The notes beneath the pieces are model-generated. The model was not told where the DNA came from. It did not search any database and worked only from the letters and a program-made list of their open reading frames with translations. From Lachnospiraceae bacterium (GTDB lineage Bacteria; Bacillota; Clostridia; Lachnospirales; Lachnospiraceae), in the NCBI GenBank assembly GCA_017614155.1, contig JAGACK010000017.1:157706-221705 (forward strand): 64,000 nt of DNA, read 5' to 3'. Shown here piece after piece: positions 30,720 to 60,413 of this stretch (the first letter of the stretch is position 1; every line of letters starts with the position of its first letter). The position numbers and the translations under genes were made by a program.

Positions 30720-30729
30720 ATGGTTCTCC

Positions 30730-31473: not shown

Positions 31474-31489
31474 CTTCGTTTTCCTTATC

Positions 31490-33439
31490 TCAAATCCTGA
31501 TCACTGTATCACGCCTGTTCTTTTTTGCTTCATACAGCATATTGTCCACTTTTGCGATCAGCTGCGAGAAATCCATGCCGGAATCACTTGTAATCTCAAC
31601 CGCACCGACTGACATTTCAACATAATAAGGCCTTTTTGAATTGCTGTTATACTTTTCAGTCTTTTTCCTGATGGCTCCTTCCATCCTTTCTATCCATTCC
31701 TGCTTGTCGTCATCCTCGCGTATTGCCATGATGACCAGGAATTCATCTCCACCGTACCTGCCCACATAACCGCGGTTTCCGATCAGCTTCTTCAGGATGC
31801 CGGCCGTGACCTTTATCGCGTTATCGCCTTCCGCATGACCGAAATTGTCATTGATCTCCTTGAGATGATCCAGGTCGACCATCATGACGATCATATGATC
31901 GCTTTCATGACCGTTGAGACAGGATACTGTCTTCTCATAAATCCCGCGTCTGTTCAGTACGCCGGTAAGACCGTCCGTGTACGCATTTATGTTCAGCAGG
32001 CTGTTCTGCTCCTCCAGTCTCTTTCGAAACTCCACTCTCTCCAGCGAAAGCTCAAGGAAGTGCATGGCCGTCCCAAGCTGAACGGATATCATATAAAAAT
32101 CCGTTACCATTTCAGGAGATATCTCACATTCAAGCACGCCGTAATTTCTGTTTCCGTCAAACAGCAGGAAATTAAAAAGAGACCTGTGCCTGTCCTCACT
32201 AAAGAAATCCGACATCCATTCGCTTGACTGCCGGGTAAACTCTATCGGGACATCAAGAACATTTATCTCCTCTCCTTCCTGGAACGCCTTCAGGAACAGC
32301 AGTTCCGGCATCTTCCAGTCGTCAGCATCATTTATGACACAGACCTTTGGCAGGACAAATATCTTTGATGTCAATGCTCCGTGCGCACATAATATCTCAC
32401 ACACCCTTTCATAGAACCTGTGCTCGTCTTCGGCAAGAGTGATCAGTTCCTTTATCAGATACGGACCTAAAAGAGATCTTTGATAAGATTCCCTGACAGT
32501 CTTGTACTGATCCATAAAATCTTCATCTTCTTCAGGTGAAGCAACATCTGCATCCGGAGCGCAGCCGCACGAGCATCTGACAATGAATTCCGAGGGTACC
32601 ACGACATTTTCGGCCCTTATGCCCTCTATCAGATTCTCAGCCTGCTGCAGAGCGGCTTTTCCCATTTTCAGGCCGTTCTGCCTGACAGTAGTAAGAGGAG
32701 GTTCAACATATGCTGAAAATGCAATATTATCAAAGCCGGTCACGGACAGATCCACCCCAACTGTATATCCTCTCTCCGCGCACACCCTGTAGACAGATGT
32801 TGTCATCTCATCATTGGCAGAGACTATAGCCTGGGCATCCGGATTGTCATCCAGAAGTTTTTTTACCTGTTCATCGGCATATTCGGTATAATCTCCCTTG
32901 GTGACATTCCTGAACGAAAACTCAAGACCGTTGTCGGTCATCGCGGTTCTGTAACCTTCAAGCCTTTCCTTTGCGTCGGCATTTATATCATAAGGCCCTG
33001 CCAGATGAAGGATATTTTTCAGTCCATGTTCCTTTATCAGATGCTCCGTACAGCTGTATATACCCCGGTAATTGTCAGTCCTGACACTCACTCCCATTTT
33101 GGGATCCACCTTATCTGAGATGACTACACAGGGTATGCCGTTGAGTTTTTCATAAAATTCTTCCAATGCGATCTTGTGAAAGGTTGTGATGGTGCCGTAA
33201 GCTATGATCACTGCATCAAGAGATGAAAAAAACGCATAATCATATATGGTACTGTACTGAAAATCCATATCAGTACTGCTGCTTACATCATCACCCATGA
33301 ACTGGGCATACTCCAGCCCCAGATAGAAGTGAAGATCATAGTCCTCTTTTTTTGAATTGTCATATATGGCTTTCATAAGCGATCTCGGAAAAAAAGTATG
33401 AGTATTCCCGATGAACACGCCTATTTTCTTTTTTTTCAA
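31490..33439 (-). CDS. diguanylate cyclase with LacI-type sugar-binding domain
   Basis: A 649-residue protein. Residues about 1-290 are a LacI/PurR-type ligand-binding fold (KKIGVFIGNTHTFFPRS, VVISDKVDP, AIVSANDEMTTSVYRVC, LSVTGFDNIAFSAYV) without the helix-turn-helix or a signal peptide, so it is cytosolic. A middle region follows, then a GGDEF domain at about 480-640 with DGLTGVLNRRG, VDLDHLKEINDNFGH and an intact active site GRYGGDEFLV. It should make c-di-GMP under control of a small ligand, probably a sugar. The start is a TTG with GAGGGG at 6 nt; the next in-frame Met is residue 23. Downstream genes are larB and larC. Confidence 0.9.
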   Translation of the reverse strand: MKKKKIGVFIGNTHTFFPRSLMKAIYDNSKKEDYDLHFYLGLEYAQFMGDDVSSSTDMDFQYSTIYDYAFFSSLDAVIIAYGTITTFHKIALEEFYEKLNGIPCVVISDKVDPKMGVSVRTDNYRGIYSCTEHLIKEHGLKNILHLAGPYDINADAKERLEGYRTAMTDNGLEFSFRNVTKGDYTEYADEQVKKLLDDNPDAQAIVSANDEMTTSVYRVCAERGYTVGVDLSVTGFDNIAFSAYVEPPLTTVRQNGLKMGKAALQQAENLIEGIRAENVVVPSEFIVRCSCGCAPDADVASPEEDEDFMDQYKTVRESYQRSLLGPYLIKELITLAEDEHRFYERVCEILCAHGALTSKIFVLPKVCVINDADDWKMPELLFLKAFQEGEEINVLDVPIEFTRQSSEWMSDFFSEDRHRSLFNFLLFDGNRNYGVLECEISPEMVTDFYMISVQLGTAMHFLELSLERVEFRKRLEEQNSLLNINAYTDGLTGVLNRRGIYEKTVSCLNGHESDHMIVMMVDLDHLKEINDNFGHAEGDNAIKVTAGILKKLIGNRGYVGRYGGDEFLVIMAIREDDDKQEWIERMEGAIRKKTEKYNSNSKRPYYVEMSVGAVEITSDSGMDFSQLIAKVDNMLYEAKKNRRDTVIRI

Positions 33440-46173: not shown

Positions 46174-49100
46174 ATGGAAAACAAGGAAAAAATCGACAAA
46201 AGACATATCGCTTACAGAAAGCGGACCGTCATGGTCCTATCGATCTCCGCGGCTGTGATAGTTATCTTTTTTCTGCTGATGCAGCTGATCCTTGATATCG
46301 AAGCGAGAAAAGACCAGGAACTCGACAATGAGAGATTCTTTTCTTCCGTCATTTCCAATCTGTCAAAAAATGAAAATGAGATAGATACGATAAGCGAAGG
46401 TTTTGACGAGAACAATGAGATCCTGCTGGACAATCTGGTGGAGGCATATTCGGATAATAATTACCGGAAGATGAAATCAATCCCTGTCAGCGACCAGAGC
46501 GATCTTCTGCTGTCCGCATCATATGCCATGACAGACTGTGCCTGGCTTCTCATTGTCAACAGCAATGCAGACATCCTTATATCCAGCGTGAAGGAAAACA
46601 ACAGCACAAACCTCCTTGAATATGAAGATATCAAACTGTCCCGAAAACAGTTTGATGAGCTTTGCGACGGCACAGTAGACAAGGTGGTCATCGAATCCCC
46701 ATATAAAGAATATGTCGACGAGCTGGGCCGCAGCCTGTATCTGTACTGCAAGCCCATTCCGGGCACCTATGACAGGGACGGTTACAAATATATACTGCTT
46801 GCCTTTTCCTCGCATATCATTGACACGGCTACCGACAGGATGATGGATCTGTCTGCGTGGCTGAACGAAACCTCTGTCGGGACTAACGGTTCGGTATTTA
46901 TGATCGATGCGCTGTCCGATAAGATCATGTACGGATCCGTAAAGGACGAAGACATGACCGGAAAAAAGCCTGCCGATATAGGCATCGACAAACTCCTTCT
47001 GTCTGACAGGTACCGCGGTAAAGCCACTATCTGCGGAACCCGCTGTTATGTCTCAACCCGGTCGTATTCATCAAAGCTTTACGGAAAGGACACCTACATC
47101 ATAGCTGCCGTGCCCGAAAGGGATCTGTACGGGATGAATTTTACCGTTGTGATCTGGAATATCTGTCTGGTTCTGATATTTACCATACTCATAACTGCGT
47201 ATTCGGCTTACATGCGTTCGGAAGCTTTGAAGAACAAGGAGGATCTGCGTACCTTCAGGCTTTCAAAAAAATACAGTTTTTCACGCCATCTCTCAGGCAG
47301 GATAATCCCGGTTGTCCTGCTTTGCTCCGTCATTGTCTTTTTCATGGCCTTTTATTTCAAAGACCTGCTTGAGCTTTCCGATGCGTTCTCGGAATCCGTT
47401 GCCATCGAAGAAGAGATAACAAATACCGTGGACAGCGCAAACAGTATCCAGAAGGACTTTCAGGCTTACCACGATGAACAGTATCTGGGCCGTGCGCAGC
47501 TGATGTCCTACATCATCGAGCTTGGAGCGTCCGTATACTTCGATCCCAAAAAAGCGCAGGTCATGGAGCTTTATGATGAATCGCCGGTAACAAAAGACCG
47601 TGTGGCTGTAAGGGATCAGTACAACAATGTCATCCGTGTACTGAACAATTCCTCGGCACTGAACGATCTTTGCAATAAAAACAATATAAACAGCATCCAT
47701 CTCATTTCCGACACAGGTGTGACCCTTGCCACTTCAACATCATACTGGAACTACTCACTTGGCACGGACAGCAGCAGACATTCGGATGAATTCTGGGATG
47801 TCATTTCAGGAAAGAAAGATTCAGTAGTAAAGGATATCACGACAGGCGAAGACGGAAAGCCCTCCCAGCTCATGGGCTGTGCGATGTATTACTACACATG
47901 CCTTGATGATGACAAAAACACCGTTTATATGAGCCTGACCGATTATCAGAATCAGAATAACAAAACCTATGCCGGCAGCGAGATCACGCGCCACAGAGGG
48001 CTGCTGCAGATAGAGACAGATCCCGACAGCGCTGTGGTGGTCATGGAAGCAGCAAAGCCCGAATACATACTGGCAAATACCAAGGTCTCAAATCACGGTT
48101 TTTTGATGGGGTTCAAGTATGATGAAGATGAGGAAGACTACATGGTCTTTTATTCCCCAAAGGAATCCATGAACGGCAGATATGCATCAGAACTGGGGAT
48201 ATCGAATACGGCTTTCAGCGGAGACTACAACGGTTTCCAGACTCTCGATTCGGAACACTATCTGCAGAGCTTCCGCAAATCCGAAGACTACTATATCGCC
48301 ACAGCCATGCCCGTCAGCTCACTGAGTATGAGCTGCGTGGAGACATCAGCCTTCTGCGCACTCTTCTGTCTTCTTATCATGCTGACCATCTCCTGCTATG
48401 CGATGATAGTCTGGGACATGGACAGGGAAGAAAGATACCGTGAAGAAACCGACCCGCTTGCTATCTTCGGACACTGGAAGAAACCCGGAAAATGGGGCAA
48501 CACTCCTCCCTTTGAAAAGTTTGAGATGATCATCTGGAACTGTCTGATACTCCTCGGATGTGTCTTTCTGGCTTCCATCTTTTTTGAGGCGAACCGTTTC
48601 GGCAGGAATTCCGCGATCCTTTACATCCTCAGCGGAGAATGGGACCGCGGCGTGCATATATTCTCACTGTCAGCCTGTTTTGTCATCATCATCATCTCCT
48701 TTGTACTGATAAAGATGTTCGGCCATGTGGCCTGTCTGATAGCATCAGTCTTCGGAAGCCGCGGAGTGACCATGATGAGACTCATCACCGGACTCATAAA
48801 AGTTGCTGCCGTGGCAGTAGTGATAATGTATTGTCTTTATCTGATGGGAATCGATGCAACGAGGCTTTTGACCTCCGCCGGGATCATTACCGCTATCGTA
48901 GGTCTGGGAGCCCAGAGCCTGGTCGGTGATCTGCTTGCCGGCATCTTTATCATCATGGAAGGCGCGCTTCATGTAGGTGATTATGTCCTGATTAACGGGG
49001 TCCGCGGCAAGGTCGTTGAGATCGGACTTCGTACTACGAGATACGAGGATGATAATCAGAACATCCGCATCATCTGCAACAATGAGCTGAAGAACTTTGC

Positions 49101-49458
49101 AAATATGTCAATGAAATACTCTGTCGTGCTTTACAATATCCCTGTACCCTACGAAGAAGACTATCAGAAGATCAAAACAGTATTAAACATTGAGTTCCTG
49201 CAGCTTTACGAGGATAACAGATTCCTGAAGGGCATACCCGTCTGTCAGGGCATCGAAGAATTTTCCGAAAGTTCCGTGGATCTGAGGGTCATGTTCATGT
49301 GCGATGAAAAAGACCGGTACAATGTACAGCGTTTCATGCACGATAATATAATGCGGATACTTACGGAAAACGATGTCCATATACCGTTCAACCAGATCGA
49401 TATCCATGTGGACCGTCTGATCGCAAAAGAAGAAAAAGAAGACAGTGAACGGGAATGA
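46174..49458 (+). CDS. MscS-family channel with two large extracellular sensor-like modules
   Basis: A 1094-residue membrane protein. TM1 (about 16-38) is followed by an extracellular region of about 280 residues with a cache-like pattern (GTNGSVFMIDALSDKIMYGSV), TM2 (about 324-347), TM3 (about 376-395) and a second extracellular region of about 320 residues (SIHLISDTGVTLATSTSYW, GLLQIETDPDSAVVVME), then TM4 (about 724-747). Four or more helices follow, with a pore helix LTSAGIITAIVGLGAQSLVG near 900-920 and the MscS beta domain (GDYVLINGVRGKVVEIGLRT). The C-terminus resembles a short MscS tail. Most MscS proteins are 280-800 residues with no such paired sensors, so gating by a ligand is possible. 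The AAGGGG site is about 14 nt from the ATG. Confidence 0.88.
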   Translation: MENKEKIDKRHIAYRKRTVMVLSISAAVIVIFFLLMQLILDIEARKDQELDNERFFSSVISNLSKNENEIDTISEGFDENNEILLDNLVEAYSDNNYRKMKSIPVSDQSDLLLSASYAMTDCAWLLIVNSNADILISSVKENNSTNLLEYEDIKLSRKQFDELCDGTVDKVVIESPYKEYVDELGRSLYLYCKPIPGTYDRDGYKYILLAFSSHIIDTATDRMMDLSAWLNETSVGTNGSVFMIDALSDKIMYGSVKDEDMTGKKPADIGIDKLLLSDRYRGKATICGTRCYVSTRSYSSKLYGKDTYIIAAVPERDLYGMNFTVVIWNICLVLIFTILITAYSAYMRSEALKNKEDLRTFRLSKKYSFSRHLSGRIIPVVLLCSVIVFFMAFYFKDLLELSDAFSESVAIEEEITNTVDSANSIQKDFQAYHDEQYLGRAQLMSYIIELGASVYFDPKKAQVMELYDESPVTKDRVAVRDQYNNVIRVLNNSSALNDLCNKNNINSIHLISDTGVTLATSTSYWNYSLGTDSSRHSDEFWDVISGKKDSVVKDITTGEDGKPSQLMGCAMYYYTCLDDDKNTVYMSLTDYQNQNNKTYAGSEITRHRGLLQIETDPDSAVVVMEAAKPEYILANTKVSNHGFLMGFKYDEDEEDYMVFYSPKESMNGRYASELGISNTAFSGDYNGFQTLDSEHYLQSFRKSEDYYIATAMPVSSLSMSCVETSAFCALFCLLIMLTISCYAMIVWDMDREERYREETDPLAIFGHWKKPGKWGNTPPFEKFEMIIWNCLILLGCVFLASIFFEANRFGRNSAILYILSGEWDRGVHIFSLSACFVIIIISFVLIKMFGHVACLIASVFGSRGVTMMRLITGLIKVAAVAVVIMYCLYLMGIDATRLLTSAGIITAIVGLGAQSLVGDLLAGIFIIMEGALHVGDYVLINGVRGKVVEIGLRTTRYEDDNQNIRIICNNELKNFANMSMKYSVVLYNIPVPYEEDYQKIKTVLNIEFLQLYEDNRFLKGIPVCQGIEEFSESSVDLRVMFMCDEKDRYNVQRFMHDNIMRILTENDVHIPFNQIDIHVDRLIAKEEKEDSERE

Positions 49459-49481
49459 TCCCGCTCACTGTCCGGCAATTT

Positions 49482-52046
49482 CTACATCTGCCTGACGGCC
49501 ATCTCGTAAAAGAACCCTTTCCGGGACATGAGCTCATCAAATGTACCCTCTTCAATGATCCGTCCCTTTTCCATCACGATGATACGGTCACAGTGTCTGA
49601 TCGTGCTGAGTCGGTGGGCTATGACTATCTTTGTTGCATCCAGCCTCTCAAGAGTCTCCACTACCATGTTCTGGGTCAGATTGTCAAGCGCGCTGGTAGC
49701 TTCATCAAAAAAGACCATTTTCGGCTTTCCAACAAGCGCTCTTGCTATGAGGATGCGCTGCTTCTGTCCTCCCGATATGGTTCCCGCTCCCTCTGTCACG
49801 ACCGTGTGTATGCCCATGGGCATGTTATCTATATCATCCTTCAGGCCTACCTCTTCTATGACCTCTTGAACCCGTTCGAGGCCTGTCGTTGGCGCAGTTA
49901 TGACAATATTATCAAATATGCTTCCGGCTATCATTCCTCCGTCCTGAAGCACGACACCGAATTTCTTTCGAAGCTCTCTCTTGTCCATTTCATCTATGTC
50001 TTTATTATCATAATATATCTTTCCGGTCTTCGGCTTTTCAAACCCCAGCAGGAGCTTTAACAGCGTGGATTTGCCGCAGCCGGACGGCCCGACTAAAGCC
50101 ACATACTCTCCGGGCTCCACCTGAAGGTTTATGTCCGAAAGGACCTGCTCCTCGGAATCGCTGTAGCCGAAAGAAACATGTGACACTTCAAGCCTCCCGA
50201 TAATATCGCCGGGCAGGCTTGCATCGCTGACTGATTCAGGCATGGTTTCCAGCACAGGCTTCACGCTCTCATACATGGGCTTTACCATATTCACTGCCAG
50301 AAAGCTGACCGCCACGGACAGAAATGCTGTGGAAAGAGCAGAAAAAGCAGCTGTAAATCCGGCATACTGACCGATTGAAAGAGGGATGGACTGTCTGATC
50401 ATCATATGATAAAAGATGAGCGAAAAGACGGTCGGCGCAATCTGCGTAACTACCCCGACCATAATAGTCGTTCTTTCTTTCTTTGCGGTGATCCCCTGCT
50501 GTCTGGTAAAGATCTGCAGGTATTTCAGTATGGCCCGGTTTTCGGATGCTGAGATCCTGAGCTTTTCTATGCCTGAAACAAACTGGAATATCGAGGATCT
50601 CGCCTTCATGTCCGCTTCAACTTTCTGTGACTCATACTTTGTCTGCCTGATGCCCAGCCAGATGAGCACAGTCATAAGAATGCCGAGCAGAAGTAGCGAC
50701 ACTGCTGCCATTTCCTTTGAATAAGAAAACATCGCAAAAAGATATCCGACTGAGAAAAGCGCCGTCAGCGCGACATTGACTATACTGTCCGAAAGAATCT
50801 GATATATGACGGAAAGGTTCATCACTCTCCCTGCAAGTTCCGCTGCGTCATAATCCCTGAAAAAGCTTTCCGGGAGATTGAACAGTCTGTCTATGGCTGC
50901 GGTCTGCACCGCATACTCCATTGATTTCATTGATCTGAAAGAAGCCAGGTTCTTTACCAGGTTAAATGATATATTCCCCAAAGTACAGGAAAGTATGACT
51001 CCTCCTATCGCCAGGAGTCCGCCCGGGTCAGCGAACGGTATGTAACGGTCATAGACCTGCTGGTTCAGTAACGGCAGCAGAAGCCCGACAAGAAGCCCTG
51101 CCAGTGACAGCAGCAGAAACCTGACGATATCGGATTTATATATCTTTTGAAATCCGAAAAGGATGATATCCGTCATCGTGAGCTTCTTTTGCGGGAAAGG
51201 CCTGTAAAAGACATAACCCTGAGGCTGCATTTCTTCCGCCACCAAAGCATCTACCCTTTTGCTCAGCCCCGTACCGGGATCATGGCACAGATACCCTGAA
51301 GGCCCGGAGGGTATGCAGGGAACGGGCATGCCGCCTTCTTTTTTGAACATGAGCATCGGACCGCTGTCCTTTTTGTACCATTTCTCAGCCGGGACCACTT
51401 CCCTGATCGAAAAATGAGATACACGGGCGATATCCTGCAGTGTGAAATTTCTCCCTGCAGCCTGCCTGACTTTTTCAAAGTCCGCTACGGTAATCTTCTC
51501 TTTCCTGCAGATAAAAGCAGCTGCATCATAAAGCGCATTTCCGGAGCTTACAAAATCCGGGTCATCCTCCTTTCCCGTCGTAAAAAACCGGCGGATCAGG
51601 TCGGTGGCTGCCATAAGGGTATTTCTGCTCTCTTCCTTTGTCGCATAGATAAACCCTTCCTCTTTGATGGAAAGCAGGTTGTACTTTTCTATGAGTTCCT
51701 CTTCGAGTTCTTTGCCCGAGGATGCCTTTATCCTGAGCCTGTTTGCAAATGAGAGTAGCTTTTCTTCATCTGCGCTCTCATCAGACACGGAGATTACTGC
51801 ATGATCAAGAGCAAGAAACAGGAATCTCCAGGCGCCTAAAAGATCCGACTCATGGCACAGAGCCGGGATCTCCTCTCCTTCAACAGCCTCAAACAGAAGC
51901 TTCCTTCTGCCGCAGACAATGCTTCCGTCCTTAAATGAAACAGGTACGATATAAACAAGAACATGTCCGCTGATCACCCTGTAAATACTGCCTTTTTCGT
52001 TCGTTATATGATATTTTCCGCCGTCTAATCTTATCTCTTTCATCAT
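49482..52046 (-). CDS. NHLM-type bacteriocin ABC transporter, permease/ATPase without peptidase
   Basis: An 854-residue ABC exporter half. The first about 270 residues are a non-peptidase N-terminal region (IRLDGGKYHITNEKGSIYRV), typical of the second ABC protein of NHLM peptide export systems. Then come six membrane helices (about 290-560) and an ATPase domain: Walker A GPSGCGKSTLLKLLLGF, signature TISGGQKQRILIARAL, Walker B PKMVFFDEATSALD and the H-loop VIAHRLSTI. The frame begins at a TTG 6 bp upstream; an ATG pair at 52046/52043 is more likely. It is the last of the leftward hydrogenase-like/HlyD/C39-ABC/ABC train and may pair with the C39 protein to export the precursor peptide encoded at 58.0 kb. 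Confidence 0.9.
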   Translation of the reverse strand: MMKEIRLDGGKYHITNEKGSIYRVISGHVLVYIVPVSFKDGSIVCGRRKLLFEAVEGEEIPALCHESDLLGAWRFLFLALDHAVISVSDESADEEKLLSFANRLRIKASSGKELEEELIEKYNLLSIKEEGFIYATKEESRNTLMAATDLIRRFFTTGKEDDPDFVSSGNALYDAAAFICRKEKITVADFEKVRQAAGRNFTLQDIARVSHFSIREVVPAEKWYKKDSGPMLMFKKEGGMPVPCIPSGPSGYLCHDPGTGLSKRVDALVAEEMQPQGYVFYRPFPQKKLTMTDIILFGFQKIYKSDIVRFLLLSLAGLLVGLLLPLLNQQVYDRYIPFADPGGLLAIGGVILSCTLGNISFNLVKNLASFRSMKSMEYAVQTAAIDRLFNLPESFFRDYDAAELAGRVMNLSVIYQILSDSIVNVALTALFSVGYLFAMFSYSKEMAAVSLLLLGILMTVLIWLGIRQTKYESQKVEADMKARSSIFQFVSGIEKLRISASENRAILKYLQIFTRQQGITAKKERTTIMVGVVTQIAPTVFSLIFYHMMIRQSIPLSIGQYAGFTAAFSALSTAFLSVAVSFLAVNMVKPMYESVKPVLETMPESVSDASLPGDIIGRLEVSHVSFGYSDSEEQVLSDINLQVEPGEYVALVGPSGCGKSTLLKLLLGFEKPKTGKIYYDNKDIDEMDKRELRKKFGVVLQDGGMIAGSIFDNIVITAPTTGLERVQEVIEEVGLKDDIDNMPMGIHTVVTEGAGTISGGQKQRILIARALVGKPKMVFFDEATSALDNLTQNMVVETLERLDATKIVIAHRLSTIRHCDRIIVMEKGRIIEEGTFDELMSRKGFFYEMAVRQM

Positions 52047-52065
52047 CCTCAAGATATATATTTCT

Positions 52066-54237
52066 TCACATCGTTTTTATCAGATCCTGATAGTGTCCCG
52101 GTATGCTTTTCAGTTCATCGTGAGTCCCCCTCTGGACGATCTTTCCGTGCTCCATTACGATGATCTCGTCACAGTCCCTGATTGCCGACAGCCTGTGCGC
52201 TACGATGATGCAGGTACAGCCCCTGCGCTTTATATTGTCGATTATCTGTTTTTCAACATTGGGATCGAGCGCGCTGGTCGCTTCATCCATGATAAGGATG
52301 CTCGGATTCGTGACCAGGGCACGGGCTATCTCAAGCCTTTGCCTCTGCCCGCCCGACAGATTTGCTCCGCCTTCCGAAAGCTCATAATCATAGGCTCCCG
52401 GCTTATTTGTTATCATGTCATGTATACAGGCATCCTTGCACGCCTCTACCAGATCCTGATCCTGGATATATTTATTCCACATGGTCAGATTATCTCTTAT
52501 GGTGCCCGTAAAAAGCGATATCTTCTGACTGACGGTTGAAACACTCGATGCCAGCACCTCCTGGGGTATCCTTTCGGCAGGTATGCCGTCAAACAGAAGC
52601 TTTCCATCCCATGGCCGGTAGAGCCCTGAACATATCTTTGACATGGTTGACTTGCCGCAGCCCGAGGAGCCTACAAAAGCAATGGAGCTTCCGCAGGGAA
52701 GATCGAATGAAAAATCACTGATCAGCGGCTCATCAAGTATGTTGTAGCCGAATGATACCTTTTCGAGACGGATGTCACCGATCAGTTTTTCCGTCAGGTT
52801 TTCCTTATCATTTTCACGGAACTTGTCATCCTCCCGGTATCTCATGATATCGTCCACCCTGGAAAGATCCGCCTTTGTGGTCTGTATCTGCCCGATAAAG
52901 CCGGCAAGTTCAGCAACCGATACTGTTATGCCAAGCAACAGCTGAAGAAAGGCCGTGAGCATTCCTGCAGTCATATTCCCGTTGATGACCTGTATGCCCC
53001 CGGCAATAAGAACCACGATGCTTGTCAGGTTTCCCGAGACTTCCGGGATAACATTCATGGCTTCCTGACGAAGTCCGAGTTTTTGTTCGAGGATGGCGGA
53101 TTTGGCAAAAAATCCCTGGAGTCTGGATATGTATTCGTTTTCTGTTCCGGAAGCCTTCAGGGTATCTGTTACGGTAAGACCGGCCATGAGGCTGCCCACA
53201 TACTTTCCCTGATCTATCTGTGCCTTCATCGTCAGGTCAGAGATTGAATCGGAAGAAAACTTCATCAGGACCAGGCTCAGTACAACAAGCGAAACACCGA
53301 TCACTGTAAGAAACGGACTGTAGAAGACCATCAGGATAATGTAAAACAGAGATACGAAGATGTTCAGAACTGTCTGGGCAAGCTCACTGGTCAGGAATAC
53401 GGATATGTTTATATTATTGTCCACTCTCTGTGAAAGATCGCCTGCATATCTCTGGTCAAAAAAACTGATCGGCAGACGGAACATATGATGGAGCATCCTG
53501 TATCCCGACAGCAGCGTCAGCTTGTTCTGCAGACGCTGAAGTATGATGCCCCGATAATAGGAAAAACCCGCCTGATAAATGACAGTGATGATCATTGCGG
53601 AAATGAGGACTGTCACCCAGTCCCGGTTCCCGCCAATCAGGATATCGTCTATGAACACCCTTGAATACACAGGTATCACTATGCCCGGAACCACAAGAAA
53701 GAGCCCCATGACAAGCAGTGACATGATCGGGGCCTTTTCGCCCTTGAGACGGTCTGCGACCAGGCCGATCATCCTGTTTTCCTTGTGTGATCTGGTAAAA
53801 TTCTCAGTAGGCTCAAATGTCAGGACCACCCCGGTGAAACAATTGTCTATATCCTCGTAGGTAAGCTTCCTTCGTCCCATCGCCGGGTCATTGATATAGT
53901 AATGCTTCCCCCTGCGCCCTTCCAGGACCACGAAATGGTTGAAATTCCAATGCAGGATACAGGGCATCGGAAGCTTAAACAGATTATCCACGCTTTTTTT
54001 GTAGCCATGGACCTCAAGCCCGAATCTTTTTCCGGCCCGCATGATATTCTTTGCGGTGCTTCCGTCCCTTGAAATGCCGGCCTCTATCCTGACCTGCTCT
54101 AAGGGCACATATTTCCCAAAGTAGGCAAGTATCATCGCAAGGCTCGCCGCTCCGCACTCAGTTGCCTCCATCTGAAAGACAGTCGGAGTCTTTTCATAGC
54201 CGCCTATCCTGTTGTTCCGGTCACCCTTTGCCGCCAT
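52066..54237 (-). CDS. NHLM-type peptidase-containing ABC transporter (C39 peptidase)
   Basis: A 723-residue exporter that cuts double-glycine leaders and moves the peptide out. The N-terminal C39 peptidase has the catalytic Cys in FQMEATECGAASLAMILAY near residue 27, His in HWNFNHFVVLEG near 105, and Asp in YYINDPAMGRRKL near 121. Six membrane helices follow (about 165-440), then the ATPase domain: GSSGCGKSTMSKICSGL, ANLSGGQRQRLEIARAL, LIMDEATSALDP, IVAHRLSAI. All residues needed for peptidase and ATPase activity are present. Its start overlaps the HlyD-like gene stop (TGATGG). The likely substrate is the GG-leader peptide divergently encoded nearby. Confidence 0.95.
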   Translation of the reverse strand: MAAKGDRNNRIGGYEKTPTVFQMEATECGAASLAMILAYFGKYVPLEQVRIEAGISRDGSTAKNIMRAGKRFGLEVHGYKKSVDNLFKLPMPCILHWNFNHFVVLEGRRGKHYYINDPAMGRRKLTYEDIDNCFTGVVLTFEPTENFTRSHKENRMIGLVADRLKGEKAPIMSLLVMGLFLVVPGIVIPVYSRVFIDDILIGGNRDWVTVLISAMIITVIYQAGFSYYRGIILQRLQNKLTLLSGYRMLHHMFRLPISFFDQRYAGDLSQRVDNNINISVFLTSELAQTVLNIFVSLFYIILMVFYSPFLTVIGVSLVVLSLVLMKFSSDSISDLTMKAQIDQGKYVGSLMAGLTVTDTLKASGTENEYISRLQGFFAKSAILEQKLGLRQEAMNVIPEVSGNLTSIVVLIAGGIQVINGNMTAGMLTAFLQLLLGITVSVAELAGFIGQIQTTKADLSRVDDIMRYREDDKFRENDKENLTEKLIGDIRLEKVSFGYNILDEPLISDFSFDLPCGSSIAFVGSSGCGKSTMSKICSGLYRPWDGKLLFDGIPAERIPQEVLASSVSTVSQKISLFTGTIRDNLTMWNKYIQDQDLVEACKDACIHDMITNKPGAYDYELSEGGANLSGGQRQRLEIARALVTNPSILIMDEATSALDPNVEKQIIDNIKRRGCTCIIVAHRLSAIRDCDEIIVMEHGKIVQRGTHDELKSIPGHYQDLIKTM

Positions 54238-55178
54238 CAGTATCCTTCCTTCGTACCGGTTCCTCCGGCAAGCTTCTCCTTCAGTACCGGCAACAGCATC
54301 GTAATCGGCGCCTTTTTATCCGTCACTATATCCGCAGTCAGAAGCGTACCGGGTGAAAGTGAAACCTCTGCCCCCTTCGCACCCGACCACTTATAACCGC
54401 TCTTTGTGGAGGCATCGGAATCCATCCTGCAGACCACCTGGACGACAGGACCGTTCCCGGCAAATGACTGCGCCAGCGCCTCATCTCCAAGCCTGTTCTT
54501 TATGGATTCCATACCTGTGACATACTCGTCAACATGATCGACTTTTGCCAGAATATGTCCGTATTCCTGCTTGTTCACGGTCGACGGATAGATCTTGACA
54601 TCCATCCCCTTTTTTATCTTTTTCCCGCTGTCTACGTCAACATAGAGAATGGCAGCCATCCTGCCGCTAAAACCCGGGCCGTTGTCACCTGCCTCGTCAG
54701 TATCCTTATTATCTCCTTCTCCACCGAACAGATCATAGACATTCTCCGCAACGATGCTGCAGATTGCGCTTCCCTGGGTAACAAACTGTCCTTCCGTGAT
54801 GTTCATCCCTATCAGATAGCCGTCACAGCTGCTCTTTATCCGGGTTTCGGGCATATCGGACTTTGGATCCCCGTTTGAAAAGTCTGCTATGATATCGCCC
54901 TTTTTTACCTTCTGTCCATCTGTAACCCATATTTTTTCTATGATCCCCGTCTGCCCGGAATAGATTACCTTCAGGCCGTCTGTCGTCATATATATCCCGG
55001 AGGCATTCACATTTTCGGGTATTCTGCCCGCGATCGACCATATCAGCGCAGATGCAAGCATCACCGCGATCCCGATCACCGCCAGCCAGAATAGCGGAGG
55101 AGTGATCTCTATCACCCGGTCAAGCTGATCAGGTGAAGAAATCTTTTCCAATGCTGTTTTTCTGAATATGCTTCTCAT
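54237..55178 (-). CDS. HlyD-like membrane fusion/adaptor protein of the NHLM export system
   Basis: A 313-residue adaptor with a short cytoplasmic N-terminus (RKTALEKISSPDQLDRVIEI), which is characteristic of NHLM-system secretion proteins, a membrane helix at about 32-52 (LFWLAVIGIAVMLASALIWSI), and an extracellular domain with a biotinyl-lipoyl-like hairpin (TGIIEKIWVTDGQKVKKGDIIADF) and beta barrel (SGKKIKKGMDVKIYPSTVNK). It links the ABC transporter to the cell envelope. It lies 30 bp after the hydrogenase-like/GGDEF/EAL gene and overlaps the C39-ABC gene, so all are one transcription unit. Confidence 0.9.
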   Translation of the reverse strand: MRSIFRKTALEKISSPDQLDRVIEITPPLFWLAVIGIAVMLASALIWSIAGRIPENVNASGIYMTTDGLKVIYSGQTGIIEKIWVTDGQKVKKGDIIADFSNGDPKSDMPETRIKSSCDGYLIGMNITEGQFVTQGSAICSIVAENVYDLFGGEGDNKDTDEAGDNGPGFSGRMAAILYVDVDSGKKIKKGMDVKIYPSTVNKQEYGHILAKVDHVDEYVTGMESIKNRLGDEALAQSFAGNGPVVQVVCRMDSDASTKSGYKWSGAKGAEVSLSPGTLLTADIVTDKKAPITMLLPVLKEKLAGGTGTKEGY

Positions 55179-55208
55179 ATCTTTATCTTCCCTTTAGCTG
55201 CTGCTTTT

Positions 55209-57842
55209 TTATTTATTATCACCAATCTGCCTGACCCTGAAACAGATGGCTTCATCAGGCGGTATGGGCTTGCTGAAATAGAATCCCTGTATCGTATCTG
55301 CCCCGAAATCCCTCAGGCGGTCAAACTGCCTTTTTTCCTCAACGCCTTCGACTATCATCTTCTTCCCGAGATCATGTATCAGATGGATCACGTTATCTAT
55401 GAAACTGTCCTTGCCGTCAACAAGATAATTATCCACCAGCGATTTATCCAGCTTGATTATATCTACAGGAATATAGGTCAGATATCCAAGAGATGAGTAT
55501 CCTGTCCCGAAATCATCCATCAGCAGGCGTATGCCCAGTCGCTTGAACCGGTCAAACAGATCATTTGCCTGCGCCGTCCTGTCAAGGAATACTCCCTCCG
55601 TGATCTCTATCTCGATGTACTCAGGTGAAACGCCGTACTTTTTAAGCGTGCTTTCAAGAAAATCAATGTAGCCCGAGTCACTGAGCTGATTGCTTGAAAA
55701 ATTGATGGAAACCGGATGCAGCTCGAATCCCTCTTCCTTCCACTTCGCGATCTGCTTTATCACAAGCTCGGTTGTGATCCTTCCGATCCGCCATATCCAT
55801 CCGTTTCTTTCCGCGACAGGTATGAACTTGCTCGGGTACAGCTCCGGTTCCTTCATACGTACCAGCGCCTCATATCCACTGGTCTCCTCTGTGCGCGAGT
55901 CGATCTGCGGCTGATACAGGATCAGAAAACCGTCATTATCGAGAGCTTCCTTTATCCTCTCGCTTATCCATTTTTCTTCCCTGGCCTTTTCCTTTAATTC
56001 CTCGGCATAGAGGAAGATCTTGTTCCTCTCGCGCTGTTTGGCTTCGGACACTGCAGCTTCGGCATTTATTATATGCTCCTCAGCATCCGCTATCCTGTCG
56101 GCCTGGGAAATCCCGATACTGACATTCATTGACAGATGATTGTGACCGATGTGGATCGGATCAGTGAATGCCTTTTGGATATCCGCCACGATCCTGCTGT
56201 CGGGCCCGACATTTTCACCCGGTATCAGGAACATGAAGACATCCCCGCCGTAACGCACTATCTGTACTCCCTGACTTTCAACAGTTTCCTTCAGCCTTCC
56301 CGTAAGTATCTTCAGAAACTGATCCGCGATCGAATGTCCATAGGTGGCATTTACATTCTTAAAGCCGTCAATATCAGCGATCATAACGGAAAATTCCGTG
56401 TTTCCGTCCATCATATCCCGAAGGAGCGAAACAGCGCTTCTCCGGTTCCATATCTCCAGAACATCATCATGTGTTGCCTGATAAAGCAGATGCTCCTTTT
56501 CGTCTTCAACTTCCCTCTTCAGATAATAGACACAGTTGTCGCGGTGGTTGAACCCGTTATAAATGGCGCACGCCATCTCGTGACAGGTTTCATATCCGCA
56601 GGAGGAACAGTTGATCTTTCTTGATTCCTCCGTATCCTTGCGCATGGAATGGTAGACCGGTTCAAGCTCCTCCGGTGTCGGGATGAAGTTTTCGCAGGTT
56701 TCGGAGAGGTCAGTGTATTCGCGCAGATAATCAGAAAGATCAAGTGAAGAAAACTGCTCGTTCAAAAGCTTCAGACGCTGCGCAGGAGTCAGGTTTCTCG
56801 CCCATGCGCTGTCAGTGTCCTTTTTGACGCTCTCACGGATCGTAAGCAGATTTGAAAATGCCCTGTCCGCATCCGCAACCAAAGGATCCACCGCTGTACC
56901 GCAGATACATCCGTTTTCACAGTTCAGCGCATCATACAGAAGAAACGGAGTATCACCTTTTGCTATCTGTCCGGCTTTTTCACGCAGGTAATTATACAGA
57001 TGCTTCTCGCCTCCTATCTCGCGGATAAAAACATCCTCTCCTATAAGCCATTTAACATTCTCCATCAGCCCGCCGGGTGTGGGATAAAAGGAGCCGAGAC
57101 CGTACTCAACCTCATCCGTTACCGGATCTGCCTCTATTCCCAGACTTTCTATATATTTCATGAGATGGGAAAAGGTAACATTATATGACACATATCCGTG
57201 ATTGTTCGGATCGTCTATCTCCAGTTTCTTTGCAATGCACGGACTGATAAAGGCAAGTCTGTCTGTCACGCCCATTTCCTTTCTTGCATAGATCGCCGCG
57301 CACATGAGAGGACTCTGGACCGGAAACAGCTTCGGGATAAGCTCCGGATGATATTTTTCAATATATGAGACTACTGCCGGACATGGCTGGGATATACCCC
57401 CGTAGAAACCGCGTTCCTGGATATACTTTATATAGCCCCAGGTCGTGATATCCGCGCCGAAGGAAACACTTATCATCCGGCTGACCCCGAGTTTTTTCAG
57501 TATCCCGAGCACACGGGCATATTCATCAGGATAATTGGCTTTGAACGCAGGTGCGATGAGCAGGGATATCTTCACTCCTTTTTTCAGATCATCGAAAAAC
57601 GCAGCCGTATCATCAAGATACTCTCTTGCGTTATGTTCACACGCATCAAAACAGGCACCGCAGGAAATGCAGCGGGACGGATCCACAATGATCTTTGACC
57701 TGCCGCTTTCATCAGCCTCGGTCGAAACACAGGCGCCCACACAGCTGCAGGATGCAATGCATTTATTGCATCCCACGCAGTTTTCATTTGTATATACAAG
57801 ACCTGTATTCATTTCTGAAAACGCCTGTCTTCCTTCATTCAT
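55209..57842 (-). CDS. [FeFe]-hydrogenase-like sensor fused to degenerate GGDEF and EAL c-di-GMP phosphodiesterase
   Basis: An 877-residue fusion. Residues 15-75 are a two-cluster 4Fe-4S ferredoxin (CVGCNKC; CISCGACFDAC). Residues about 90-370 are an [FeFe]-hydrogenase large-subunit fold. All four Cys expected to hold the H-cluster are present: C154 (QPCPAV), C202 (SPCIAKKLE), C308 and C312 (NCENGC). The proton-relay Cys before C154 is Pro, as in putative sensory types. Residues about 405-440 form another FeS motif (NCSSCGYETC). A GGDEF domain (455-610) has GGDVF instead of GGDEF (532-536), so is probably inactive. The EAL domain (625-865) has YEALVRM, MDDFGTGYSSL and VEGVEE intact, so should cleave c-di-GMP. 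It leads the NHLM export operon. Confidence 0.92.
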   Translation of the reverse strand: MNEGRQAFSEMNTGLVYTNENCVGCNKCIASCSCVGACVSTEADESGRSKIIVDPSRCISCGACFDACEHNAREYLDDTAAFFDDLKKGVKISLLIAPAFKANYPDEYARVLGILKKLGVSRMISVSFGADITTWGYIKYIQERGFYGGISQPCPAVVSYIEKYHPELIPKLFPVQSPLMCAAIYARKEMGVTDRLAFISPCIAKKLEIDDPNNHGYVSYNVTFSHLMKYIESLGIEADPVTDEVEYGLGSFYPTPGGLMENVKWLIGEDVFIREIGGEKHLYNYLREKAGQIAKGDTPFLLYDALNCENGCICGTAVDPLVADADRAFSNLLTIRESVKKDTDSAWARNLTPAQRLKLLNEQFSSLDLSDYLREYTDLSETCENFIPTPEELEPVYHSMRKDTEESRKINCSSCGYETCHEMACAIYNGFNHRDNCVYYLKREVEDEKEHLLYQATHDDVLEIWNRRSAVSLLRDMMDGNTEFSVMIADIDGFKNVNATYGHSIADQFLKILTGRLKETVESQGVQIVRYGGDVFMFLIPGENVGPDSRIVADIQKAFTDPIHIGHNHLSMNVSIGISQADRIADAEEHIINAEAAVSEAKQRERNKIFLYAEELKEKAREEKWISERIKEALDNDGFLILYQPQIDSRTEETSGYEALVRMKEPELYPSKFIPVAERNGWIWRIGRITTELVIKQIAKWKEEGFELHPVSINFSSNQLSDSGYIDFLESTLKKYGVSPEYIEIEITEGVFLDRTAQANDLFDRFKRLGIRLLMDDFGTGYSSLGYLTYIPVDIIKLDKSLVDNYLVDGKDSFIDNVIHLIHDLGKKMIVEGVEEKRQFDRLRDFGADTIQGFYFSKPIPPDEAICFRVRQIGDNK

Positions 57843-57874
57843 ATCCTTTACCTGATATCGGAATATACAGAGTT

Positions 57875-57880
57875 ATTATA
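57875..57880 (-). promoter_or_regulatory. extended -10 promoter of the export operon
   Basis: On the minus strand TGTTATAAT forms an extended -10 (TGn plus TATAAT) about 35 bp upstream of the hydrogenase-like gene start. No good -35 is seen, as is common with extended -10 promoters. Confidence 0.5.
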
Positions 57881-57916
57881 ACACAGATCGATACTCTATG
57901 ACAGACTCGAAAAAAC

Positions 57917-57951
57917 TTGGCCTTTTCCATCCCGTTATCGTATATTATAAT
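57917..57951 (+). promoter_or_regulatory. candidate promoter of the precursor peptide gene
   Basis: TTGGCC (57917-57922) and TATATT (57941-57946) are 18 bp apart; an overlapping TATAAT occurs at 57946-57951. The -35 is weak, so an activator may be needed. It lies back to back with the export operon promoter, about 60 bp upstream of the peptide start. No c-di-GMP riboswitch is recognisable in the leader. Confidence 0.4.
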
Positions 57952-58008
57952 AACAAGCATTAAGCAGTATATTATTTTTCAACTAAATTCATGGGAAAGG
58001 AGGACCAG

Positions 58009-58197
58009 ATGAGCTCGATCGATGATCTTAAAAACCAGGCTGAAAACGATGCCGAACTGACAGAAGGCGAAATGGATGCGGTAGCAGGTGGACTTCCCGG
58101 CGTCCAGATCCCCGGAGCGAAAGATTACATTCAAGAGGTAGAGGTTACCGATAAATTCGGGAGAATAACTAAACATAAAGTACAGGGAGTTCCGTAA
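58009..58197 (+). CDS. double-glycine leader precursor peptide for the NHLM exporter
   Basis: A 62-residue peptide. The leader (residues 1-28) is acidic and amphipathic and ends ELTEGEMDAVAGG, the classic double-glycine cut site for C39 peptidases. The predicted mature peptide is 34 residues, LPGVQIPGAKDYIQE... to ...HKVQGVP, with nearly balanced charge, five basic Lys/Arg and four acidic residues. It has no Cys, Ser or Trp, so lanthionine or disulfide formation is not possible. The frame extends 6 codons to an ATG at 57991, but the ATG at 58009 has GGAGG at 5 nt, within that extension. It is divergent from the export operon, and no modification enzyme is nearby. It could be a signal peptide or an unmodified bacteriocin. 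Confidence 0.88.
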   Translation: MSSIDDLKNQAENDAELTEGEMDAVAGGLPGVQIPGAKDYIQEVEVTDKFGRITKHKVQGVP

Positions 58198-58199
58198 AA

Positions 58200-58424
58200 T
58201 CAGTGATAATAAAAGCCTTCCCGGGTTTCGGGAAGGCTTTTATTAAACCTATTCAGAGCCTCATTTTCTTCAAAATTGAAATACGCAACATTTTCAAACC
58301 ATTCTTTTCCAAATTGCTTTACTATATATGTCTTTCCGCATTGCCTGACACCGAGAAGCAAAAGCGGTTTACGCTTCTTCCTGTCTTTCCATTTGACCAG
58401 ATCCTTCATTATCAATCTATCCAT
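58200..58424 (-). pseudogene. truncated DUF4143-type AAA ATPase (N-terminal fragment)
   Basis: About 74 residues similar to the start of the complete ATPase at 58.7-60.1 kb: MDRLIMKDLVKWKDR, then the Walker A region LLLLGVRQCGKTYIVKQFG and AYFNFEENEAL. A GGAGGAG site precedes the ATG at 58424 (the frame extends further upstream to 58472). The frame ends inside the terminator of the precursor peptide gene and has lost the Walker B, the rest of the ATPase core and the DUF4143 part. The fusion to the terminator looks like the result of a deletion or of insertion of the peptide locus. Confidence 0.8.
58212..58245 (+). terminator. terminator of the precursor peptide gene
   Basis: AAAGCCTTCCC (58212-58222), a GGGTTTC loop and GGGAAGGCTTT (58230-58240) form an 11-bp perfect stem followed by TATTAAA. 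It begins 14 bp after the peptide stop, so the peptide is a single-gene transcript. Confidence 0.9.
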
Positions 58425-58555
58425 TGAACACTCCTCCAACAGACATTCCCAAAACTTAAATCTATTCCCCACTTTAACATGTTAAGTAAGAAGGTTCAAT
58501 AAGAAATCACATTATTCATATGAATTTCTGGCATCCGCTCACATTTTACATACCT

Positions 58556-58748: not shown

Positions 58749-60146
58749 TTATTCCGGCACCTTAAGTTTTGACACATCCACAACAGGAACTATGGTTGCA
58801 GGCTCAGGCTCTTCCAGAAAACCCAACGCGTACAGCGGATATGTTCTAAAGCCTTCGCCTGAACCGACATTAGTATCCGCATATTTCACTGCCGGATGTT
58901 TCCCGTATTTTTTCGGATGAGACAGCACAAACTTCATGCTTGTAGCCCTGTTGTTGGAAGATTTGCATTCCGCTATCACAACCTCGCCTTCCTGTTCAAA
59001 AAGAAAATCCAGTTCAGGGGAACCGCTTGGTGCATGAAAATAATACAGAGTCCTGCCATTTTTTGCAAACGCAGATGCAACCATGTTTTCAGCGATCGCC
59101 CCCTTGTAAGAACTGATATCGCCGGAAAGTATCTTACCGGGAACCTCATTTCCCATTTGTGAAACCAGCAAACCGGTGTCTATGAAAAAAGCCTTGAATT
59201 CAGAGGAGATCCTGACCCCATCGAGAGGATAGGAGATTTCCGTTGTGTTGAATGCGCGTACCACCAGTCCCACATCCACAAGATATTGCAGCCCATCAGC
59301 TTTTTCGGGTGAATGTCCTTTCACATTAACAAGGCTGTACTTGAACTTCTTGTATTCCTTTGAAAGCTGGGCAGGCATGGAATCCAGACACGCCTCAGCC
59401 CGCAGCTTCAAAACTTCGTTTACTTTATCGTTTCCGTGTATATCCCTGTATCTTCCAAAATCATCCCGAATGGAAGCCAGTATCCTGCGCTGGATCCTTC
59501 TGACCTCATTTAGATCATGGTTTTCAAAAAATACCTTTACAGCCTCAGGCATGCCTCCGACCACAAGATACTGATAATATAAAGCACGCAGACTTTCATG
59601 GATCGTTTTTTCAACAGCAGTATCATTTTTCAGCGAATCTCTGACATATTCCGTTACTCCTTCATCCATACCCGTGTTTTCCAGAAATTCCCCGAAAGTC
59701 AGCGGATACATGATAAGCTGCTGTTCATATCCTACCGGAATTCCTCTGATATACGGCTCCCTGAACCCCTTAACCCCAAGAAAACTGCCGGTGGCGATGA
59801 CATCATATCTCCCGTCCGTATCCCAATACTTAAGGGAACTTCTTGCGTTTGGGCAATCCTGTATCTCATCAAAGATGATCAGGGTCTTCCCCGGTACAAA
59901 CCGTACCGAAGGCTTGACCGCAGAAAGCATCATCACCATCCTGTCCACATCAAAATCACCATCAAAAACATCATGAACTGTCTTGTCCGCACGCAGATCG
60001 ATGTATACCGTGCTTTCGTAATATTCCTGTCCAAATCTTTTAGCGATATATGTTTTCCCTGTTTGGCGCAGTCCCTTTATTATGAGCGGATGATGCTCTC
60101 TCTCCTTCCATTCTATGAGTTTTTTCCATATTTTTCGTTTAAGCAT
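58749..60146 (-). CDS. AAA ATPase with C-terminal DUF4143
   Basis: A 465-residue ATP-binding protein of the AAA_14/DUF4143 family. Walker A is in LIIKGLRQTGKTYIAKRFG near residue 25; Walker B in KTLIIFDEIQDCPNARSSLK near 90; sensor-1-like VIATGSFLGV near 120; the C-terminal half has the nuclease-like DUF4143 features TGLLVSQMG, KGAIAENMVASAF and SPELDFLFEQEGEVVIAECKS. Full length. AAGGGGG precedes the ATG. Members are common in anaerobes and their cellular role is unclear. It lies just downstream of a 33-bp tandem repeat that occupies its promoter region. Confidence 0.92.
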   Translation of the reverse strand: MLKRKIWKKLIEWKEREHHPLIIKGLRQTGKTYIAKRFGQEYYESTVYIDLRADKTVHDVFDGDFDVDRMVMMLSAVKPSVRFVPGKTLIIFDEIQDCPNARSSLKYWDTDGRYDVIATGSFLGVKGFREPYIRGIPVGYEQQLIMYPLTFGEFLENTGMDEGVTEYVRDSLKNDTAVEKTIHESLRALYYQYLVVGGMPEAVKVFFENHDLNEVRRIQRRILASIRDDFGRYRDIHGNDKVNEVLKLRAEACLDSMPAQLSKEYKKFKYSLVNVKGHSPEKADGLQYLVDVGLVVRAFNTTEISYPLDGVRISSEFKAFFIDTGLLVSQMGNEVPGKILSGDISSYKGAIAENMVASAFAKNGRTLYYFHAPSGSPELDFLFEQEGEVVIAECKSSNNRATSMKFVLSHPKKYGKHPAVKYADTNVGSGEGFRTYPLYALGFLEEPEPATIVPVVDVSKLKVPE

Positions 60147-60185
60147 CCTGATCCCCCTTGTTTTCTGACATTATACAATATGGAT

Positions 60186-60350
60186 TGTCATTTTTCAAGG
60201 GTTTGCAGGGACTGTTTTTGTCATTTTTCAAGGGTTTGCGGGGACTGTTTTTGTCATTTTTCAAGGGTTTACAGGGACTGTTTTTGTCATTTTTCAAGGG
60301 TTTACAGGGACTGTTTTTGTCATTTTTCAAGGGTTTACAGGGACTGTTTT
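60186..60350. repeat. 33-bp tandem repeat, five units
   Basis: Five consecutive 33-bp units begin TGTCATTTTTCAAGGGTTT at 60186, 60219, 60252, 60285 and 60318, with a partial sixth at 60351. Units differ at only one or two bases (TTTGCAGG, TTTGCGGG, TTTACAGG). Since 33 is a multiple of 3, all frames stay open, giving repeat-peptide frames on both strands that I do not take as genes. The array ends in the REP-like AAGAACCGTCC and lies 40 bp upstream of the ATPase start. Units are contiguous without unique spacers, so this is not a CRISPR array. Confidence 0.93.
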
Positions 60351-60356
60351 TGTCAC

Positions 60357-60413
60357 AAGAACCGTCCACTTTTTAAGGGTAAGACAAAAGAACCGTCCCC
60401 TTGTCTTACCCTT
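60357..60413. repeat. REP-like element beside the tandem repeat
   Basis: AAGGGTAAGACAA (60375-60387) and TTGTCTTACCCTT (60401-60413) form a perfect 13-bp stem, and the 13-nt loop is AAGAACCGTCCCC, the REP-like core. A second core (AAGAACCGTCCAC) lies at 60357-60369. No run of T follows on either strand, so it is a poor terminator. Confidence 0.8.

Follow-up and report, generated by a model that had tools for sequence, protein, structure and literature searches.

Precursor peptides of the NHLP and Nif11 types have been described together with a three-gene transport set, TIGR03794, TIGR03796 and TIGR03797 (in the portions of PMC2887384 available to us). A second kind of system, the putatively sensory [FeFe]-hydrogenases, is exemplified by the group D protein TamHydS, in which Ser stands for M353, Leu stands for M497 and a Cx2Cx4Cx16C motif follows the H-domain (excerpts of PMC8163306). 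How such proteins relay their signal is treated as an open question in the available parts of PMC8163306 and PMC13104023. The HydDB groups, as given in the relevant rows of PMC5037454, include [FeFe] C1 (histidine kinase-linked), C2 (chemotactic) and C3 (phosphatase-linked), and the diguanylate cyclase-linked [NiFe] 2c. Here we analyze a locus at which a gene for a hydrogenase-like protein fused to GGDEF and EAL domains (the fusion) directly precedes an NHLM-type peptide export set. It lies in a 64,000-nucleotide stretch of Lachnospiraceae bacterium DNA (contig JAGACK010000017.1 of assembly GCA_017614155.1, positions 157,706 to 221,705), hereafter the window, from a 2.64 Mb draft genome that is 94.67% complete (G000). 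It is probable, in our judgement, that two independently evolved modules have come to lie side by side in this lineage: an NHLM exporter with its peptide, and a redox sensor acting on cyclic diguanosine monophosphate (c-di-GMP). The sensor rather than the pairing is the more unusual part, being hydrogenase-like in a genome in which genes for HydF and HydG were not found.

Pairing of the sensor gene with the export set

The locus consists of the following features.

49440..49473, - strand: terminator-like hairpin closing the leftward unit (15 pairs, then a T run)
49482..52052, - strand: second ABC permease/ATPase (TIGR03797, 792 bits, cut-off 709; match from residue 171)
52066..54237, - strand: C39-peptidase/permease/ATPase ABC protein, or C39-ABC protein (TIGR03796, 995 bits, cut-off 853; Peptidase_C39, 132 bits)
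54237..55178, - strand: short HlyD-like adaptor of the NHLM type, 313 aa (TIGR03794, 217 bits, cut-off 156)
55209..57842, - strand: HydS-like/GGDEF/EAL fusion, 877 aa (Fer4 pair, Fe_hyd_lg_C or H-domain, FeS, GGDEF, EAL)
57843..58008, both strands: divergent intergenic region between fusion and precursor genes (promoter-like sites at 57904 to 57875 on the - strand and 57924 to 57951 on the + strand)
58009..58197, + strand: 62-aa precursor gene (28-aa double-glycine leader, 58009-58092; 34-aa cysteine-free core, 58093-58194)
58207..58245, + strand: hairpin terminating the precursor gene (17 pairs, -26.9 kcal/mol, z -7.3)

Read 5' to 3', the leftward genes follow in the order fusion, adaptor, C39-ABC protein and second ABC protein, with 30 bp between the first two, an overlap of 1 bp between adaptor and C39-ABC genes and 13 bp between the two ABC genes. 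From this spacing alone we infer that the four genes form one transcript. The promoter-like sites in the divergent region each match 10 of 12 consensus positions; they are consensus matches only, and such sites are frequent in the region (20, against a shuffle mean of 11.8). The gene content given in the initial annotation was borne out: NCBIfam and Pfam matches identify the two NHLM-type ABC proteins, the HlyD-like adaptor and the hydrogenase-like/GGDEF/EAL protein, the spacing stays within the 30 bp claimed, and the divergent 62-residue double-glycine precursor with its own terminator is upheld by the 17-pair hairpin and by a strict leader scan in which it is the unique match. The claim that the locus is without a modification enzyme likewise agrees with the Pfam scan described below.

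That annotation had gone further, and proposed that redox or hydrogen state, c-di-GMP breakdown and peptide export are coordinated as one system. We therefore compare the locus with its relatives from both sides. We looked for the sensor half in 117 genomes, those of 116 relatives and the window's own, and searched 60 stretches that carry it with the window's proteins. A second set came from a scan of further genomes with a 13-row alignment, from which the best 80 of 561 confirmed matches were taken, in stretches of up to 21 kb; its genomes are mostly Lachnospiraceae, many from ruminant guts, and the two sets overlap by at least 10 contigs, judged by length. Neither an NHLM-like ABC pair nor an adaptor lies beside the sensor module in any of the 60 relative stretches or the 80 of the second set, where ABC ATPase-like matches below 150 bits were left out of view. 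Because the adaptor starts 30 bp past the fusion, 1 kb downstream is enough to reveal it; among the aligned proteins from genomes other than the window's, 32 of the 36 full-length ones and 88 of the remaining 99 have at least that much sequence. Several sensor stretches do hold single ABC ATPase-like open reading frames (ORFs), up to 115 bits in the first set, and at L243 two ABC exporters (26-38% similar) adjoin the sensor gene, with no HlyD or precursor match.

Approached from the exporter, the result is the same: no fusion is seen in any of the 45 other NHLM stretches (40 + 5, three of the 40 being other loci of the same genome), 37 of which extend 1 kb or more upstream of the transporter genes. 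At L162 some 7 kb separate a GGDEF-EAL protein from an NHLM pair, and at L167 a weak hydrogenase-like ORF lies 2.7 kb from one.

The closest full-length orthologues of the fusion, L169 (80%), L170 (76%) and L171 (75%), are also without the export set. Among 16 full-length orthologues (60-80%), shared neighbours are confined to small groups, L170/L171 and L195/L203/L237 for example, and none of the window fusion's neighbours recurs in the seven of the 16 that were compared (L169, L170, L171 and four more). Among 397 searched genomes of the family, one further orthologue came up at E <1e-220 (G397, 63%), with no NHLM match above 90 bits across the surrounding 19.5 kb. Some distant genes of the window, members of common signalling families, have relatives in the flanks of L169, L181, L187 and L246.

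With no pairing in 140 sensor stretches or 45 other NHLM stretches, a conserved fusion-exporter unit is rejected, and the proposal of one coordinated system lost its footing. The initial annotation had itself named the two situations that would speak for chance adjacency, and both were found, NHLM loci without the fusion in every one of the 45 stretches besides the window's and the fusion or sensor module without the export set in every one of the 140. The fusion-exporter junction looks specific to this lineage; it may be recent and species-specific, yet functional.

Sensor and output of the fusion protein

The sensor half matches solved [FeFe]-hydrogenases, and the protein is of the putatively sensory group C/D-like kind: it has the cluster motifs, no Cys299 and a C-terminal Cx2Cx4Cx16C motif, at residues 412-437. 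The FeS match itself (PF04060) scores 22.9 bits, just below the gathering score of 23. At positions placed by motif, in CpI numbering, Pro occupies the place of Cys299, Ser that of M353 and Leu that of M497. Pfam gave no PAS domain, the feature sought for group C, at E up to 0.1. Across 136 aligned sensor-module proteins (own copy and repeats counted in), the eight cysteines of the N-terminal motifs, the four of the H-domain and the four of the C-terminal motif are kept in 136/136, except C28 in 135/136; Lys205 is invariant (136/136) and Ser200 nearly so (135/136).

At the output end the GGDEF site is degenerate, reading GGDVF at residues 532-536 rather than the GG(D/E)EF looked for in a cyclase, and its Glu is present in 7 of 37 full-length proteins. 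The EAL site is intact (E658). The residues known to be catalytic in EAL domains were checked, and EAL, Asn, Glu, Asp-Asp, Lys, Glu and Gln are all there, invariant in 37/37 full-length proteins (own copy and repeats included). Since the EAL residues are invariant and the GGDEF Glu is kept in only 7/37, the output is most likely c-di-GMP hydrolysis, and on these residues the fusion is probably a redox-gated c-di-GMP phosphodiesterase. Control of the locus by a c-di-GMP riboswitch was also considered and is rejected, no Rfam family, c-di-GMP riboswitches included, having matched at gathering score in the window.

The same sensor module is joined to other outputs elsewhere. Among 126 distinct proteins, 71 are chemotaxis-type (MCP), 34 GGDEF-EAL and 19 histidine-kinase/receiver, with 2 unassigned; the MCP and kinase types were confirmed by Pfam on 8 proteins. 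On a quick tree the GGDEF-EAL label changes at least 2 times, giving two separate clades, with gain and loss indistinguishable and 42 of 123 inner branches weak.

With regard to what the sensor senses, we searched for the maturase genes HydF and HydG. In the window's own genome nothing exceeds the HydF cut-off (best 88.6 bits, against 325.55), HydG has no match, and no second Fe_hyd_lg_C protein was found, so that the fusion is the only one. Across the 117 genomes, HydF is above cut-off in 58 and HydG is matched in 51. For the count by sensor module, 36 genomes with aligned modules were used, 22 of them at least 90% complete; G002, G018 and G039 (sensor truncated or split) and more distant matches were left out. 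Half of these 22, 11 genomes, have HydF, nine of them HydG as well, and the other 11 match neither. Relatives G032, G037, G038 and G042, as against G010, show HydF without an HydG match, or the reverse, through either draft gaps or real loss. By position, hydF lies 34 bp to 3.5 kb from 14 of 78 chemotaxis-type (MCP-fused) modules, repeats included (the adjoining sensor genes are at L070, L071, L072, L074, L075, L077, L109 and L213), and near 0 of 37 GGDEF-EAL-type modules within the stretches examined.

Because HydF and HydG, which take part in assembling the diiron part, were not found, the H-domain in this genome probably holds only a [4Fe-4S] cluster, and the input would be cellular redox or oxygen rather than H2. 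From these searches Fe-S redox sensing appears likelier than H2 sensing here. Redox-gated c-di-GMP breakdown, as first proposed, is plausible by itself; the hydrogen state named with it is doubtful, with HydF above cut-off, HydG and a second Fe_hyd_lg_C protein all missing from view. For the family, the distribution reads as if some members function without a full H-cluster; incomplete drafts weaken this pattern but do not readily explain it.

The exporter, its peptide and the surrounding genes

As an NHLM set the exporter is ordinary; its precursor is unusual. The three export proteins, members of TIGR03794, TIGR03796 and TIGR03797, are adjacent and all above cut-off, as expected for NHLM/NHLP. 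The C39-ABC protein matches the structures 4ry2, an 'ABC-type bacteriocin transporter' (residues 18-719), and ComA, 8hf4 (residues 22-720), and is predicted to cleave after Gly-Gly and export the product. An extension of ~170 aa precedes the matched part of the second ABC protein at its N-terminus; because this extension also aligns in ten fusion-less NHLM loci, it is no sign of a special link.

The precursor start at 58009 follows a ribosome site, AGGAGG, at 57998-58003. Its leader reads ...ELTEGEMDAVAGG and is followed by the 34 core residues, none of them Cys. Double-glycine leaders carry hydrophobic residues at -4, -7 and -12, and this one does so, ends in GG and has a C39 exporter close by. 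In a strict scan for such leaders (ATG, ribosome site, hydrophobics at -12/-7/-4, GG) it is the sole match in the window, against 0 in 100 dinucleotide-shuffled windows. No convincing homologue was seen in 47 other genomes of the genus, the best E of 0.099 being at chance level, and of the NCBIfam models only Nif11 came up, at 13.9 bits (E 0.05), below its cut-off of 32.3. A Pfam scan covering 47 of the window's 49 largely non-overlapping ORFs of 90 aa or longer recognised no enzyme modifying ribosomally synthesized and post-translationally modified peptides (RiPPs); 8 of the 47 have no family match at the thresholds applied. Going by its composition and neighbours, the 34-residue peptide is most likely secreted unmodified, bacteriocin-like or as a signal. 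Export of an unmodified peptide, another element of the initial annotation, stays plausible as a separate function, with its cysteine-free core and no enzyme recognised; its link to the fusion is unsupported.

The nearest NHLM modules, L140, L141 and L143, resemble that of the window at 69% for the C39-ABC protein, 57-59% for the second ABC protein and 47-49% for the adaptor. At L140 a radical-SAM gene (Pfam) and a leader peptide with a short cysteine-containing core stand beside the module, and L141 has a cut-off ORF that by eye resembles the L140 radical-SAM protein. A 340-aa protein by these modules (L140:13668-14699, L141:7977-8993, L143:10330-11355; related by eye, the L140 copy without a Pfam match) may be a RiPP maturation partner. 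Since partners of the L140 type were not found in the window, its module would be a variant with the fusion and a cysteine-free peptide in their place. Of the other NHLM-type ABC loci in the genome, those labelled C32 and C39 are above the TIGR03797 cut-off and C7 is just below it. At C32 (L137, 7208-7621) the precursor appears by eye to be of the Nif11 kind, and its core is rich in both Cys and Ala.

The peptide and export block ends next to a gene fragment:

58200..58472, - strand: truncated remnant, at the border of the peptide and export genes, of a second AAA_14-type ATPase gene (AAA_14, 42.8 bits)

This remnant matches the intact AAA_14/DUF4143 gene at 58749-60146 (- strand) at 39.7% over 58 aa, and the terminator hairpin of the precursor sits within its reading frame; it may mark a junction. 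Upstream of the DUF4143 gene, at 60139-60376, is a short repeat whose - strand ORF consists of repeated DKNSPCKPLKN units. At the other end, convergent with the exporter unit, 46174-49458 (+ strand) encodes a 1094-aa protein with a C-terminal MscS channel domain and a long N-terminal region without a Pfam match. Farther away, 29490-31500 (- strand) holds a nickel-insertion gene and an AIR-carboxylase gene by Pfam, presumably LarC-like and LarB-like, which would suggest a nickel-pincer cofactor pathway.

Competing explanations and described systems

On the reading that we prefer, two separate modules brought together in this lineage, the exporter would remove the 28-residue leader and secrete the 34-residue unmodified peptide. 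Beside it a soluble sensor would register redox change through two N-terminal [4Fe-4S] clusters, a group C/D-type H-domain and a C-terminal [4Fe-4S] site, and pass the signal to the degenerate GGDEF and active EAL domains, the EAL hydrolysing c-di-GMP and thereby lowering it. Co-transcription would tie the levels of redox sensor and exporter to each other locally, without any wider system. Several observations weigh against this picture. The tight spacing and the shared divergent region would be expected of a functional unit; some relative stretches stop at contig ends, and 8 of the 45 NHLM stretches show less than 1 kb upstream. Maturase genes could sit in the part of the genome missing from the 94.67% complete draft, and the maturase searches covered HydF and HydG but not HydE. 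The four H-domain cysteines are kept in 136/136 proteins, HydF-less genomes included, and a full H-cluster could still be made or obtained.

The locus could instead be a dedicated signalling unit in which c-di-GMP, lowered by the EAL domain in response to redox or H2, governs peptide export. The tight leftward spacing, the terminator-like site after the last gene and the shared divergent promoter region would all fit, and the N-terminal extension of the second ABC protein could in principle bind a ligand. We nevertheless hold this to be very unlikely, as the pairing recurs in none of the sensor or other NHLM stretches, the extension is found in fusion-less loci as well, and the window lacks Rfam matches at gathering score, c-di-GMP riboswitches among them. 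A different question is whether the fusion, with a complete H-cluster, truly senses H2, the maturase genes merely missing from the draft. The H-domain cysteines and Lys205, kept in 136/136, the proximity of hydF to 14 of 78 chemotaxis-type modules, repeats included, and the HydF of 11 of the 22 near-complete module genomes, with HydG in 9 of those 11, speak for such a sensor. However, the own genome shows neither HydF above cut-off nor HydG nor a second Fe_hyd_lg_C protein, none of the 37 GGDEF-EAL-type modules has hydF in the stretch examined, and both matches are lacking in 11 of the 22 module genomes that are 90% or more complete, more than gaps alone would explain, which makes this account unlikely.

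The peptide side has its own alternative: an enzyme encoded elsewhere in the genome may modify the precursor, or the exporter may serve other precursors in trans. The further NHLM-type loci of the genome (C32 and C39 above the TIGR03797 cut-off, C7 just under it), the Nif11-like precursor at C32 with its cysteine-rich core and the radical-SAM partner of the near relative L140 give this some appeal. It seems doubtful all the same, because the core has no Cys, the peptide gene adjoins the exporter, and no modifying enzyme was recognised in the 47 window ORFs, the rest of the genome not having been searched for such enzymes.

Beyond this locus we advance a wider scenario tentatively, as possible rather than probable. 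The hydrogenase-like sensors of Lachnospiraceae, with all Fe-S ligands kept, would in many species be [4Fe-4S] redox sensors without the enzymes that build the H-cluster; their c-di-GMP-degrading form would occupy two separate clades of the sensor tree, next to chemotaxis and histidine-kinase forms, and in this species one copy would have been captured upstream of a peptide exporter, placing an unmodified peptide's secretion on a redox-linked transcript. If the absence of HydF and HydG from half of the near-complete genomes is true, many proteins of these gut bacteria that would be annotated as hydrogenases or H2 sensors respond to a different signal, and the reading of rumen hydrogen metabolism from metagenomes would be affected.

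Compared with described systems, the export genes are like the NHLM/NHLP transport cluster, with three adjacent proteins above curated cut-offs and a leader-peptide gene close by, but differ in a precursor below the Nif11 cut-off, with a short double-glycine leader and cysteine-free core, and in having no recognised modification enzyme. Similarly, the C39-ABC protein is like the exporters 4ry2 and 8hf4 in its near full-length similarity, C39 domain and nearby double-glycine substrate; unlike them it has a second ABC protein and an adaptor encoded alongside. For the sensor, none of the papers listed in searches of open-licence PMC text deals with a GGDEF or EAL fusion to an [FeFe]-type sensor, and the available parts of PMC10787695, PMC12727194 and PMC11509735, which mention both topics, describe no such fusion. 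The HydDB rows examined (PMC5037454) likewise contain no [FeFe] class with c-di-GMP output, and the output of the fusion looks like a phosphodiesterase, a comparison made by description. Kinship with HydDB C1 and C2, as those rows define them, is seen in the relatives, whose sensor modules of the same kind are fused to histidine-kinase and MCP outputs. The fusion differs from TamHydS (group D) and TmHydS (group C), as the accessible sections present them, in that its output is GGDEF-EAL in the same chain, not a PAS domain or none, and in coming from a genome that yielded neither HydF nor HydG in the searches. Yet it shares with both two N-terminal [4Fe-4S] motifs, a four-cysteine H-domain, the C-terminal Cx2Cx4Cx16C and the lack of Cys299 (excerpts of PMC8163306 and PMC13104023), and with TamHydS also Ser for M353 and Leu for M497 (excerpts of PMC8163306). 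Sensor modules of this kind share a single chain with one or another of three outputs.

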